DNA from: Flavobacteriaceae bacterium
GTDB lineage: Bacteria > Bacteroidota > Bacteroidia > Flavobacteriales > Flavobacteriaceae
Direction: 5' to 3'
DNA length: 40,728 nucleotides
Assembly (NCBI GenBank): GCA_013002065.1
Contig: JABDKT010000020.1
Location: 1 to 40,728 of the forward strand
The position numbers and the translations under genes were made by a program. The notes under the pieces were generated by a model. That model was given only the letters and a program-made list of their open reading frames with translations, was not told the DNA's origin and did not search any database. This document shows, one piece after another, positions 995 through 37,957 of the stretch; the first letter of the stretch is position 1; every line of letters starts with the position of its first letter.

Positions 995-3691
995 CTAGTC
1001 TGCGATATTGGGTTGAAGCCACTTAGTAGCTTTTTCGATTGAAATATTTTTTCTTTTTGCATAGTCCTTAACTTGATCTTCCTTTATTTTTCCTAATCCG
1101 AAATAACGTGCTTTCGGATGCGCGAAATAATAGCCGGAAACCGAGGCAGCAGGCCACATAGCCAAACTCTCGGTAAGTTCTACGCCTATTTGTTCTTTGA
1201 CTTTTAAAACGTCCCATATCGTTTCTTTTTCTAAATGATCGGGACAAGCGGGATAGCCGGGAGCCGGCCTAATTCCCGCGTATTTTTCTTTTATTAATTC
1301 TTCATTGCTTAAATGTTCACCATATACATAGCCCCAATGCCACTTTCTGACTCGCTCGTGCAAGTATTCGGCAAAGGCTTCTGCCAAACGATCGGCCAAT
1401 GCTTTCACCATAATGGAGCTGTAATCGTCATTTTCGGCTTCAAATTTAGCGGCCAATTCGGCGGTTCCAAATCCGGTAGAGACACAGAAACAACCTATGT
1501 GATCTTGAATTCCCGATTCTTTCGGTGCAATAAAATCGGCTAGTGCCAGATTAGGTCTGCCTTCTGCTTTTTTCGACTGCTGTCGCAACGTTCGGAAGGT
1601 ATAATTTCCACCAAAATTCACACCTTTAATCTCGCCTTGGGGAACTTCAAGTTCAATATCATCATCATTCACACTATTGGCCTTAAACAGTCCGAAAATA
1701 CCTTTGGCTTGCAAAAGTTCTTCGGAAATAATTCGTTTTAAAAGGGTTTGTGCATCATCGAACAATTCTCGAGCTTGTTCCCCGACCACCTCATCGTTCA
1801 ATATATCGGGATATCTTCCGTGCAAATCCCAACTTCTAAAAAACGGGCTCCAATCAATATAGTCTGTCAACGATTCTAGATTAGTCCATGATACCACTTG
1901 TATCCCTAACTGTTCCGGTTCGACGATATCCTCTTCATTCCAGTCGATTTTAAATTTATTTCTTCGTGCTTCGGAAATGGAAACATACGATTTGGTTTGC
2001 TGTCTATCCAGAAATCCGTCACGGAACTTCTTGTACTCTTCCTTCAAGTTCGATCGGAACAATTCGGCTTTGTCCTTCTGAAGCAAATCGCCCACCACGG
2101 TTACGGCTCTGGAAGCGTCATTCACATGAACTACTGCATGTTGGTACTGCGGATCGATCTTCACCGCCGTATGTGCTTTGCTGGTGGTCGCTCCACCTAT
2201 AAGCAACGGCACCTCAAACTTCTGTCGTTGCATCTCTTTCGCAAGGAAAACCATTTCATCCAATGAAGGTGTTATCAAACCGCTAAGTCCAACCACATCA
2301 ACTTGATGTTTTTTCGCTTCAGCAATGATCTTTTCAGGCGGTACCATGACGCCTAAATCAATAATTTCATAGTTGTTACATGCGAGCACGACCGAAACAA
2401 TGTTTTTACCAATATCGTGCACATCTCCTTTTACGGTTGCCATCAAAATTTTACCGTTAGTAGAAGAAATTTCGTCCTTACTTTCCTCAATGTAAGGCAG
2501 TAAATAGGCCACAGCCTTTTTCATAACCCGGGCACTTTTCACTACTTGAGGCAAAAACATTTTTCCACTTCCGAAGAGATCTCCCACAACATTCATCCCG
2601 GTCATTAAATGACCTTCGATTACCTCGATAGGTTTGTTCACGTTCTGCCTGGCCTCTTCCACATCGGTTTCGATATAGGCATCGATTCCTTTCACTAATG
2701 CTCTGGTTATCCTGTCTTGCAGGGGCTCTTCTCTCCAGGACAAATCGGCTGTTTTTTCTTTCTTCGTTCCTTTGACCGTTTCAGCAAAATCGAGCAAACG
2801 CTCTGTAGCATCGTCTCGCTTATCCAAGATCACATCTTCAACGTGTTCTAACAAATCTTTGGGAATGTCGTCGTATACCTCCAGCAACGCCGGATTCACA
2901 ATACCGATATTCATCCCCGCCTGAATGGCGTGATACAAAAACACCGAATGCATGGCTTCTCTCACCACATCGTTCCCCCGAAAACTAAAGGAAACATTAC
3001 TCACTCCACCACTCACACTACAATGTGGTAAATTCTCTTTCACCCACCGAGTCCCTTCGATAAAATCGACTGCATTTTTTCTGTGTTCGTCCATTCCCGT
3101 GGCCACAGGGAAAATATTGAGGTCGAAAATAATGTCTTGAGGTTTAAAATTCACTTTATCAACAAGGATGCGGTAAGACCTTTCGGCAATTTCAATACGG
3201 CGTTCCAAATTATCGGCTTGCCCAACTTCATCGAAGGCCATGACAATCACAGCAGCACCATATCGTTTGATAAGCTTTGCCTGTCGAATGAACTCCTCCT
3301 CTCCTTCTTTTAGACTTATGGAGTTTACTACACACTTTCCTTGTACTACTTGCAGCCCGGCTTCGATGATCTCCCATTTGGAACTGTCGATCATGATAGG
3401 CACCCTCGCAATGTCCGGCTCGGCCACGACAAGATTTAGGAACTTGACCATGGCTTCTTTTCCGTCGATCAAACCGTCGTCCATATTCACATCGATAATT
3501 TGGGCTCCACCTTCCACCTGATGACGAGCAATGGACAATGCTTCATCGAATTTATCATCTTTAATCAACCGAAGAAATTTTCGTGACCCTGCCACATTGG
3601 TGCGTTCCCCAACGTTGATAAAATTACTTTCAGGAGTGATCACCAAGGGTTCGAGACCCGATAGTTTTAAATATTTGGGTGCTTCGCTCAT
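995..3691 (-). CDS. metH: Methionine synthase, folate/B12/activation part (MetH C-terminal part)
   Basis: The large part of cobalamin-dependent methionine synthase (898 residues): takes the methyl group from 5-methyl-THF via cobalamin to homocysteine. Order seen: pterin-binding domain from about residue 25 ([12 protein letters not shown]) to about 300; helical cap plus B12-binding domain about 340-560 with the DVHDIGKN motif near 423, containing the cobalt-ligating His; activation domain about 590-898 with the SAM-binding RPAPGYP motif. The homocysteine/zinc domain is missing from the N-terminus and is encoded separately at 4632-5645. This split is familiar in flavobacteria, from memory. The gene starts 2 nt after the stop of the PLP-enzyme gene and abuts metF. 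Confidence 0.95.
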
Positions 3692-3693
3692 TC

Positions 3694-4635
3694 TTAAAAT
3701 GGTAGGTTTAACAAGTCAACATTGCCCCCGGAGAGTACAATGCCAACTTTTTTATTCTGAAATTTTTCTTTTTCACGTAAAACAGCAGCAAAAGGAACGG
3801 CACATGAAGGTTCGATGATAATTTTTAATCGTTCCCAAATGAGCTTCATCGCATGGATGATTTCCTCTTCCTCCACTCTAATAATTTCTGAAACCAGCTC
3901 TTTTATAATGGGAAAATTGATGTCTCCAAGGTTGGTTCGTAAACCGTCGGCAACCGTATGGGTTGTCGTATTGGTTTCTATTTTTCCCGACTGTAACGAT
4001 CGATAAGCGTCATCCACGGCAAAGGGTTCACCTCCGATAACTTCACATTCCTTACCGAAATAATACGCCGCCAAAGCCGTTCCTGCAATAAGTCCGCCAC
4101 CACCAACTGGCACCAAAACAATTTCAACATCGGGATGATCTTCTAGGAGTTCAATGGTCGCTGTTGAATTGCCTAGAATTACATTCAAATCATTTGACGG
4201 GTGTAAAAAAGTAGCTCCGGTTTCCTTTTTTATTTTTTCTGAAGTGGCTTCTCTGGCCTCCAGGGTAGATTCACAAATTGTGACTATTCCGCCGTAGCCT
4301 TTCACCGCCTCTATTTTGACTTTGGGAGCATTTTCTGGCATGACGATATAGGCGTTTACTCCCAGATTCCTTGCAGCCAAGGCGACTGCTTGTCCGAAGT
4401 TCCCCGAAGAATGTGTCACCACTCCCTTGGACTTCCGATCGTTACTTAAATTTTCAATTGCATTTAACGCACCTCTCATTTTAAAAGCTCCCATCTTCTG
4501 GAAGTTTTCGCATTTAAATAAAATCTTACAGCCAGCGAGTTCATCCAATAATCTGGAATGCATCACCGGGGTACGATGCGCAAATGATCTCACCACGGCA
4601 TGCGCCTCCAAAAGTTTATGTTTTTTTGGTATCAT
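3694..4635 (-). CDS. Serine racemase / threonine dehydratase-like PLP enzyme
   Basis: A fold-type II PLP enzyme, 313 residues without a C-terminal ACT domain. Seen: PLP lysine K52 in AFKMRGA, phosphate/substrate loop SSGNFGQ (76-82), glycine loop PVGGGGL (176-182), and an EPFAVDD segment with E203 and D209, matching the divalent-metal site of eukaryotic-type serine racemase. This suggests serine racemase, serine/threonine dehydratase or hydroxyaspartate dehydratase; which one cannot be told from sequence. It is clearly a different protein from the ACT-containing IlvA at 21669-22931. Its ATG overlaps the stop of the homocysteine methyltransferase gene (ATGA), and its own stop is 2 nt before the large metH part, so it sits between the two parts of methionine synthase and under the same SAM-I riboswitch. 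Confidence 0.85.
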
Positions 4636-5645
4636 GAAACGGCTACGGATTTTAATAAGGGTCGAGGATTAAATTTTGCCGCTATTTCAGCGATGGCTTT
4701 AATGTGCTCGGGAGTAGTTCCACAGCATCCTCCAATGATATTGACCAATTTCTTATCGAGATATTCCTCAATTTGGGCTGCCATTTGTTCGGGTGATTCG
4801 TCATATTCACCAAAGGCATTAGGTAAACCGGCGTTGGGGTAGGCAGATACCGCAAGATTTGTACGATTCGCCACTACCTCTAAATGGGGCGTCAATTGTT
4901 TGGCTCCCAAGGCGCAGTTGAAACCGACGCTAAGGAGAGGAATGTGCGATACTGAAATTAGAAATGCTTCGGCGGTTTGTCCGGAAAGGGTTCTTCCGGA
5001 GGCATCGGTAATAGTTCCACTTACCATGATGGGCACATCGATTTGTCGTTCCTCTTTTACTTCTTCGATAGCAAACAAAGCAGCCTTAGCATTCAGGGTG
5101 TCGAAAATGGTTTCTACCAGAAGTAAATCGGCTCCTCCATCGAGTAGCGCTTCAGCTTGTTGTTTGTAGGCGATTCTCAAGTCGTCGAAAGTAACGGCTC
5201 TGTATCCCGGGTCATTTACATCGGGGGAGAGACTTGCCGTTTTATTGGTGGGTCCCATGGCTCCAGCGACGAAACGAGGTTTATTTGGATTTTGTTCGGT
5301 GAATTTATCGGCTACTTCTTTAGCGATTTTAGCCGATTCGAAGTTGATTTCATACACGAGATTTTCTAGGTCATAATCGGCCATGGCGATGGTAGTTCCC
5401 GAAAAGGTATTGGTTTCTACAATATCGGCTCCGGCTTCGAAGTATTTGGAATGTACTTCTGCAATGGCTTCGGGTTGGGTAATGGAAAGCAGGTCGTTAT
5501 TTCCTTTCAGCGGCTTGTGAAAGTCTTTAAAACGATCTCCCCGAAAATCTTCTTCGGTGAAATTATAGCGTTGTAGCATGGTTCCCATAGCCCCATCAAG
5601 GACCAGAATTCTTTGTTGTAATTCTTTATGTATGTCTTTTCTCAT
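4632..5645 (-). CDS. metH: Homocysteine S-methyltransferase part of methionine synthase (MetH N-terminal part)
   Basis: Zinc-dependent homocysteine-binding barrel that accepts the methyl group from the cobalamin part encoded at 995-3691. With the ATG at 5645 it has 337 residues. The three zinc-ligating cysteines are present: C244 in GFNCALG and the pair C307-C308 in GGCCGT. The N-terminal [10 protein letters not shown] motif is typical of MetH. A TTG two codons upstream is possible, but ATG giving MRKDIHKEL is preferred. It is the first gene behind the SAM-I riboswitch at 5781-5914 and a structured repeat; its stop overlaps the start of the PLP-enzyme gene by 4 nt. With no pterin, B12 or activation domains here, it must act with the second polypeptide. 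Confidence 0.94.
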
Positions 5646-5655
5646 CTTCAATTTT

Positions 5656-5769
5656 GCGTTAGTGATAGTAACGGCATCCCCTCCTTCACTGCTTTGCAGT
5701 TAATGGAGGGATATAGTGAATAGCACGACCCTTCGAAGCAATGTATCATTGCGAAGTAGGGTAACGCCC
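5656..5769 (-). repeat. Structured Bacteroidota-type intergenic element in the metH leader
   Basis: On the minus strand it begins with GGGCGTTACCC and ends with CTAACGC, its ends pairing as GCGTTA/TAACGC (5762-5767 with 5656-5661). Inside are two strong hairpins: 5728-5762 (ACCC/GGGT with CTTC/GAAG and GCAATG/CATTGC) and 5676-5712 (ATCCC/GGGAT, CTCC/GGAG, ACTGC/GCAGT). From memory it resembles a dispersed intergenic element of flavobacterial genomes (GGGCGTT...GGGTCG.GCTAT...ATGCCG...CTAACGC); this is unverified. It fills the leader between the SAM-I aptamer and the metH start. Confidence 0.6.
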
Positions 5770-5780
5770 TAAAAAATAAA

Positions 5781-5914
5781 TATCAAGAAAGTAGGTAGAA
5801 GTACCTGTTTGTGTGTTATCTATTTCGTTAAACGAATAGAATGTAGCACCTTCTCTGTTCGGACAAAGGGTTGCTAAGGCTTCACAGGGTCTATTCCCTC
5901 CACCTTTCTTGATA
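5781..5914 (-). promoter_or_regulatory. SAM-I (S-box) riboswitch upstream of metH
   Basis: Minus strand shows the S-box core: TATCAAGAAAGGTGGAGGGA, then GACCCTGTGAAGCCTTAGCAACCC, AAGGTGCTACATTCT and AGATAAC. P1 is a perfect 11-bp helix: TATCAAGAAAG (5904-5914) with CTTTCTTGATA (5781-5791). P4 is AGGTA-CTTC-TACCT. Right after P1 comes a U-rich tract (5771-5780), and no separate terminator/antiterminator pair is obvious. SAM binding should reduce expression of the metH-PLP enzyme-metH-metF operon. Confidence 0.93.
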
Positions 5915-5942
5915 ACTTGTTAACATGCAAATGAACTGAGTA

Positions 5943-10763: not shown

Positions 10764-10913
10764 TTATAAAGAATGATCTTCCAATTAGGGTAATTGGGCA
10801 GGTCGTTATCTATCTCCGGAATAATTCCGACGTAGAATTTAGCACCTTCTTCGTATAGAACGAAGGGTTGCTAAGGCTTCAAAGGGTCTATTCCCTCCAC
10901 CTTTCTTGATAAC
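10764..10913 (-). promoter_or_regulatory. SAM-I (S-box) riboswitch upstream of metB
   Basis: Minus-strand core: TTATCAAGAAAGGTGGAGGG, GACCCTTTGAAGCCTTAGCAACCC, AAGGTGCTAAATTCT, AGATAAC. P3-region stem CTTCG/CGAAG is present, and P4 is a perfect CCAATTA-CCC-TAATTGG hairpin. P1 pairs TTATCAAGAA with TTCTTTATAA (10764-10773) with one mismatch. P1 is again followed by a short U-rich tract. The 80 nt to the start codon hold only a small CGTC/GACG hairpin. Expected effect: SAM lowers expression of metB and the four genes behind it. Confidence 0.93.
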
Positions 10914-10943
10914 ATTTCAATAAAGTTTTGAACTTTGTGAGTA

Positions 10944-37884: not shown

Positions 37885-37894
37885 TGCGCTGAAT

Positions 37895-37944
37895 GAGGAA
37901 AGATTTGACTGATTGCAACCTCGAAAAAAAATGCTAAAGGCAGT
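37895..37944 (+). promoter_or_regulatory. SAM-II-like riboswitch upstream of metK
   Basis: H-type pseudoknot of the SAM-II fold: P1 GAGG/CCTC (37895-37898 with 37919-37922), enclosing GATTTGAC and GATTGCAA; then an A-rich loop, ATGCTAAAGG and CAGT. The pseudoknot pairs ACTG (37908-37911) with CAGT (37941-37944) and GCA (37915-37917) with TGC (37932-37934). GATTTRAC, TTGCA and GCTAAA are the conserved SAM-II core as I recall it; SAM-V shares a similar core. Upstream of SAM synthetase, it fits end-product control. Confidence 0.8.
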
Positions 37945-37957
37945 GCAAACTACCTTC

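Follow-up and report, generated by a model that had tools for sequence, protein, structure and literature searches.

REP and REPIN elements are short, intergenic and palindromic, occur in many copies and do not duplicate their targets. MITEs are short, non-autonomous and dispersed elements with inverted terminal sequences, and the attC sites of integrons are imperfect palindromes with a variable terminal structure and GTTA/TAAC ends, whose polarity is RYYYAAC at the 5' end and GTTRRRY at the 3' end. Flavo-1 (RF01705) is listed by Weinberg et al. 2010 as probably RNA and probably not cis-regulatory (PMC2864571). According to the consulted sections of a Flavobacterium psychrophilum transcriptome study, Flavo-1 matches lie sense or antisense to transcribed regions, and many fall outside any of them (PMC9723704). 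The part of a 2022 review that deals with the family counts it among the most abundant sRNA families and gives no function (PMC9029176), and Flavo-1 also appears in a benchmark table of PMC3765529. An account of Flavo-1 as a mobile repeat was not found in the openly accessible full-text literature, and a search for papers on palindromic repeats or MITEs of flavobacteria yielded nothing pertinent.

The window, i.e., the whole analysed stretch of 40,728 nucleotides from a Flavobacteriaceae bacterium, contains at 5656-5769 a 114-nt element with the ends GCGTTA/TAACGC and two hairpins, exactly as reported in a preliminary description made from the sequence alone. The likeness to an intergenic element of many flavobacterial genomes that was pointed out there is confirmed: the 114 nt are a Flavo-1 copy and thus a new member of the known family RF01705. 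The Rfam model matched 5651-5734 on the + strand by cmscan with 45.2 bits, which passes the curated gathering cut-off of 42 bits. The covariance model that the preliminary description had proposed was built from 20 trimmed genus copies, the window copy included (model R1), and it recovers 5656-5769 on the + strand with 69.6 bits, in agreement with the first coordinates to the base. At E<=1 this is its sole match in the window; thus the metB leader lacks the element, as had been noticed. The placement between the SAM-I aptamer and the start codon of metH, a gene name that we assign from sequence knowledge, also stands. The orientation has to be reversed. The element is antisense to metH because Flavo-1 matches on the + strand with both models, while metH and both SAM-I aptamers of the window (the second at 10803-10915) are on the - strand. 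Both strands of the element fold well in comparison with shuffled sequences (z -3.26 and -3.27), which may explain why it was first described as sense. The features of the element and its neighbourhood are as follows.

5656-5769, + strand: complete Flavo-1 element, antisense to metH, matched by RF01705 and R1
5656-5660, + strand: 5' strand of helix P1, GCGTT, pairing with 5763-5767, with double-sided changes in all 5 pairs
5662-5679, + strand: 5' half of the P2 core, GTGATAGTAACGGCATCC, conserved in the seed alignment, pairs counted
5680-5709, + strand: variable arm of P2, a hairpin, from sequence and parsing
5710-5727, + strand: 3' half of the P2 core, GATATAGTGAATAGCACG, from the seed alignment and pair counts
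5728-5761, + strand: variable hairpin P3 with its 5' linker A, outside the Rfam model
5763-5767, + strand: 3' strand of P1, AACGC, followed by the conserved CC at 5768-5769
5782-5791, - strand: switch segment CUUUCUUGAU, complementary to aptamer positions 5904-5913, outside the element
5813-5918, - strand: neighbouring SAM-I riboswitch aptamer of metH (RF00162, 77.0 bits)
4632-5645, - strand: neighbouring metH N-terminal ORF, start ATG at 5645

The window copy shares the sequence and structure of the core hairpin with RF01705. However, the Rfam family is a single hairpin typed as an sRNA gene, whereas the copies analysed here contain two further helices and behave as a dispersed repeat. The Rfam model comprises one hairpin of 76 positions, and the match shows eight unpaired positions at either end. 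Beyond this hairpin (P2), the copies hold a closing helix (P1) and a hairpin (P3) that follows P2 and precedes the 3' strand of P1. Flavo-1 copies are therefore three-way junctions composed of the terminal helix P1, the conserved core P2, which is purine-rich and conserved in the seed alignment, and the variable hairpin P3. In the seed, which consists of 20 of the 25 parsed copies (five were omitted for poor parsing of P1 or P3, one more was unparsed, and the seed parser was not given the six poorest copies of the genus), 96.8% of 500 cells are paired and 17 of 25 pairs show double-sided changes. The corresponding values for 100 copies are 96.7% of 2386 cells and 22 of 25 pairs. The covariation score is 0.585 versus 0.169 after shuffling in the seed, and 0.409 versus 0.134 in the larger set; in both sets, all 5 pairs of P1 have changed on both sides. 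As a model containing P1 had served to find or align these copies, this helix was tested separately on the copies found with the Rfam model (32 of 33 used). The exact five-base complement followed by CC is present downstream in 17 of the 32, compared with a mean of 3.4 when P1 strands are swapped among copies, and none of 2000 swaps reached 17. At L100:2864-2962, at L131:2880-2993 and in L252 upstream of trxA, variant copies have another sequence in place of the AGCGGCATCC core and retain the lower P2 pairs. REP-like palindromes such as TTCGACTGCGCTCA occur in the P2 arms of five copies of the window's own genome (L001, L004, L005, L006 and L007) and look as if other repeats were nested in the loop.

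The pairing pattern also indicates which strand folds. In alignments fitted to a model, the 2386 cells of the Flavo-1 strand include 44 G-U and 11 A-C pairs (binomial p 9e-6), which implies that folding is required of the Flavo-1 strand. The SAM-I aptamers of the fetched loci contain 70 G-U and 16 A-C pairs among 1444 cells. The lower share of G-U pairs in Flavo-1 (1.9% versus 5.1% in the aptamers) could be taken as an argument for a pure DNA function, yet the excess of G-U over A-C is alike in both (44:11 and 70:16), which weakens this argument. The pattern is compatible with a single strand that folds, whether as DNA or as RNA.

The copies are widely dispersed. In the window's own genome, at least 13 places match over several searches, the weakest of them (L010) judged by eye. 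At E<=0.001, the number of matches ranges from 2 to 29 in seven of the nine genomes of the genus, and the remaining two gave no match. The element is present in at least 76 of 120 genomes sampled from the family and in at least 36 of 296 sampled from the phylum, mostly of the same family; since few candidates were scored in each genome, both figures are minimum counts. One genome contains copies that are 96% identical and flanked by unrelated 40-nt sequences. A query of 2083 bases from the complete genome G079 gave 33 further matching pieces in that genome, all confined to query positions 961-1134, with the element at about 1002-1083. Near-identical copies with unrelated flanks, together with orthologous sites free of the element, demonstrate dispersal, and the suggestion of the preliminary description that the segment could be just an insertion gains support in the form of a dispersed element. 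The two outcomes named there as arguments against its own reading, a single copy without relatives or the lack of a conserved structure, did not occur.

The boundaries of the repeat unit are sharp. Among 100 copies with 60 nt of flank per side, the only conserved positions outside the unit are -2, -1 and +1 to +3. TY before the element and AAA after it are weakly preferred. In the same set no promoter was seen in the repeat unit, TAnnTTTG occurs upstream of 9 of the 100 copies versus 5.8 after shuffling, and the identity of 2- to 6-nt flanks is at the chance level, i.e., no target-site duplication was detected. Flavo-1 resembles MITEs in its terminal inverted repeats (P1, 5 bp, covarying) and differs from them in the absence of target-site duplication and of a long autonomous version; none with a gene between the core halves was seen in the fetched loci. 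Integron attC was rejected as a candidate on polarity, since Flavo-1 has the opposite one, with GTTA at the 5' end and TAAC at the 3' end (GCGTTA ... TAACGC). The element is intergenic, and its orientation relative to genes is near-random: the 98 of 100 copies with two flanking ORFs (called by length alone) fall into orientation classes of 35/25/21/17, compared with 51/40/22/30 for 143 background gaps. No strand bias was detected along the replicon of one complete genome, which has 16 versus 16 copies, and the best two-arc contrast was reached by 62% of shuffles. The Flavo-1 core pattern was also found in nine viral-contig stretches (L254-L262), which may be prophage flanks.

The metH leader is one of the sites at which the element has been kept in several species. 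Eight leaders were readable in the genus; in five genomes (G000, G002, G003, G004 and G008) the element occupies the same position with the same orientation, and three (G001, G005 and G007) lack it. Among 80 named metH loci of other genera, R1 found it upstream of metH in six, always antisense. All 11 metH-leader copies are antisense, two of them being weak matches (E 0.07, and E 0.18 for the G002 copy), and they could trace to few insertions. In other genera (L088, L098, L111 and L129), a sense-orientation copy directly follows the long ORF located after the metH N-terminal ORF. In genus leaders parsed by script, the distance from the switch segment to the ATG is 53-55 nt without the element and 144-223 nt with it; a regex survey of SAM-I parsed 18 of 88 metH loci. 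The switch segment is predicted to form a helix with the aptamer 5' strand with a mean probability of 0.86 in the window leader, and the same helix is predicted in three element-free leaders (0.89, 0.99 and 0.97). In the window leader, 34.2 of the pairs expected for the element are internal and 2.45 involve the rest of the leader. Like SAM-I expression platforms, the element lies downstream of the aptamer, but the switch helix is formed outside it. As the switch segment is located outside the element and is kept in leaders that lack it, the element is, as far as folding can tell, not an expression platform, and the recruited platform envisaged in the preliminary description was rejected. The metH mRNA carries the reverse complement of Flavo-1, which would fold by itself, flanked by the SAM-I switch helix and the A-rich start region. 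Judging from these predictions, the element in the metH leader most likely acts as a self-folding spacer that is tolerated, and is neither a regulator nor a working part of the riboswitch. The case is a warning against taking every structured leader segment for riboswitch machinery. In three element-free metH leaders (L053, L054 and L058), a short hairpin is predicted in the slot of the element.

A second shared site lies upstream of trxA, presumably in the dnaE-trxA spacer. Here the element is present in G000, G001, G003, G004, G006 and G008, the G002 copy has its core replaced, and G005 gave no trxA match. G007 has no element between the flanks GGTAGnGAATTT and ACTATAnATAAAAACAATCTG that it has in common with G001; about 35 other nucleotides lie between them, so the slot is not perfectly empty. 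Assigned by hand through protein matches of the flanking genes, 25 genus copies form eight site groups, and the orientation is the same within all eight. The arms do not follow the sites. Of 55 aligned rows, 53 were compared, leaving out an arm shorter than 15 nt and an unlabelled second copy. P2 arms that share a site but come from different genomes have a mean likeness of 0.464 (36 pairs), versus 0.452 (1043 pairs) for arms from unrelated sites in different genomes (p 0.27); for different sites of one genome the mean reaches 0.533 (299 pairs), a value that none of 2000 permutations attained. Without G008, the source of many pairs, the means are 0.444 for orthologous sites, 0.454 for other sites and 0.495 within the same genome. 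In P3, too, the arm of the window copy is similar to those of L016 and L017 from its own genome. The likeness of arms within genomes suggests that copies overwrite one another, i.e., that they evolve in concert by conversion or overwriting. At sites kept across species the structure stays paired, and selection at the site could be involved.

We consider it probable that the Flavo-1 copy is a short, non-autonomous dispersed repeat with the form of a folded single strand, placed antisense in the metH leader by a mover, refreshed there and serving as a passive spacer. Flavo-1 would move as one unit, from P1 to CCC, and would be maintained as a folded single strand, in the form of single-stranded DNA or RNA recognised by some factor that puts new copies in intergenic DNA. 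The metH leader may have received its antisense insertion in an ancestor of part of the genus and retained it since. Resident copies would be refreshed from other copies of the same genome, leaving the core intact and the arms genome-specific. Mobility as such is inferred from the genomes, with no transposition event among the data. More tentatively, and with a probability that we place somewhat below even, Flavo-1 may form its own class of mobile elements: a promoterless, strand-specific three-way junction without target duplication, handled by a factor outside the tested Y1, Y2 and reverse-transcriptase families, whose copies are continually overwritten within the genome, inheriting site and orientation while their arms change in concert. 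If Flavo-1 is a mobile repeat, many 'sRNAs' of flavobacteria are misleadingly annotated, and an abundant 'sRNA' family would be recast as a dispersed, mobile and structured repeat. The Rfam model should then be extended by P1 and P3, and the question shifts to the factor that moves and rewrites the copies.

Several other explanations have to be weighed against the dispersed repeat. A function of the element within the metH leader (as a platform, insulator or stabiliser), maintained by selection on the metH mRNA, would agree with its constant place and orientation in five genus genomes, its antisense presence in 6 of 80 further loci, the structure kept despite diverged flanks, and the short hairpin predicted in the same slot of element-free leaders. 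We find this unlikely, as three genus leaders without the element retain the switch segment, its predicted folding is independent of the leader, related elements occur in all orientations genome-wide, and the arms at orthologous sites are not conserved. A stand-alone sRNA gene on the + strand, antisense to metH, corresponds to the Rfam type 'Gene; sRNA' and could account for the conserved purine-rich core and the fourfold higher tolerance of G-U than of A-C on the Flavo-1 strand. The repeat unit nevertheless has no promoter, conservation ends 2 nt upstream, orientation is near-random and G-U pairs are rarer than in SAM-I aptamers; in the consulted sections of the F. psychrophilum study the matches lie on either strand of transcribed regions and many lie in none (PMC9723704), and such a gene seems very improbable to us. 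The arm differences could also have arisen without any overwriting, if the shared sites were hot spots hit repeatedly and independently in the same orientation. The unlike arms at shared sites and the weak TY/AAA preference would suit such hot spots, but so few preferred bases could not determine site and strand together, and the orientation is identical in eight of eight groups, which makes hot spots a rather unlikely explanation, though one with some weight.

Another rival concerns the mover rather than the repeat. Flavo-1 shares with REP/REPIN elements its short, intergenic, palindromic and multi-copy character, the absence of target duplication and a strand-specific structure, and its mover might accordingly be an IS200/IS605 enzyme or a transposase of the RAYT (Y1 tyrosine) kind. 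Y1_Tnp, however, was found in just 2 of 9 genomes of the genus, in 2 of 12 high-copy genomes and in 4 of 14 zero-copy genomes, with no match in the window's own genome or in the complete genome G079, which holds dozens of copies. In form, Flavo-1 differs from the simple hairpin of REP/REPIN by its three-way junction with a conserved internal loop. Such a mover appears very improbable, and a RAYT mobiliser was rejected on the absence of Y1_Tnp from the own genome and from 10 of 12 high-copy genomes. RVT_1 was detected in 5 of 12 high-copy and 3 of 14 zero-copy genomes, and Y2_Tnp in 1 of 12 and 0 of 14. An HUH Y2 (IS91) or reverse-transcriptase mobiliser was likewise rejected, Y2_Tnp being missing from 11 and RVT_1 from 7 of the 12 high-copy genomes. 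None of the Y1, Y2 and reverse-transcriptase families is required for Flavo-1.

Two further observations concern the surroundings of the element. metH is split into two ORFs of 339 and 898 aa within 995-5651 on the - strand, with a 313-aa ORF between them, the product of which we take to resemble threonine dehydratase or serine racemase. Besides its two SAM-I riboswitches, the window also carries a SAM-II riboswitch at 37889-37947 on the + strand (64.3 bits).
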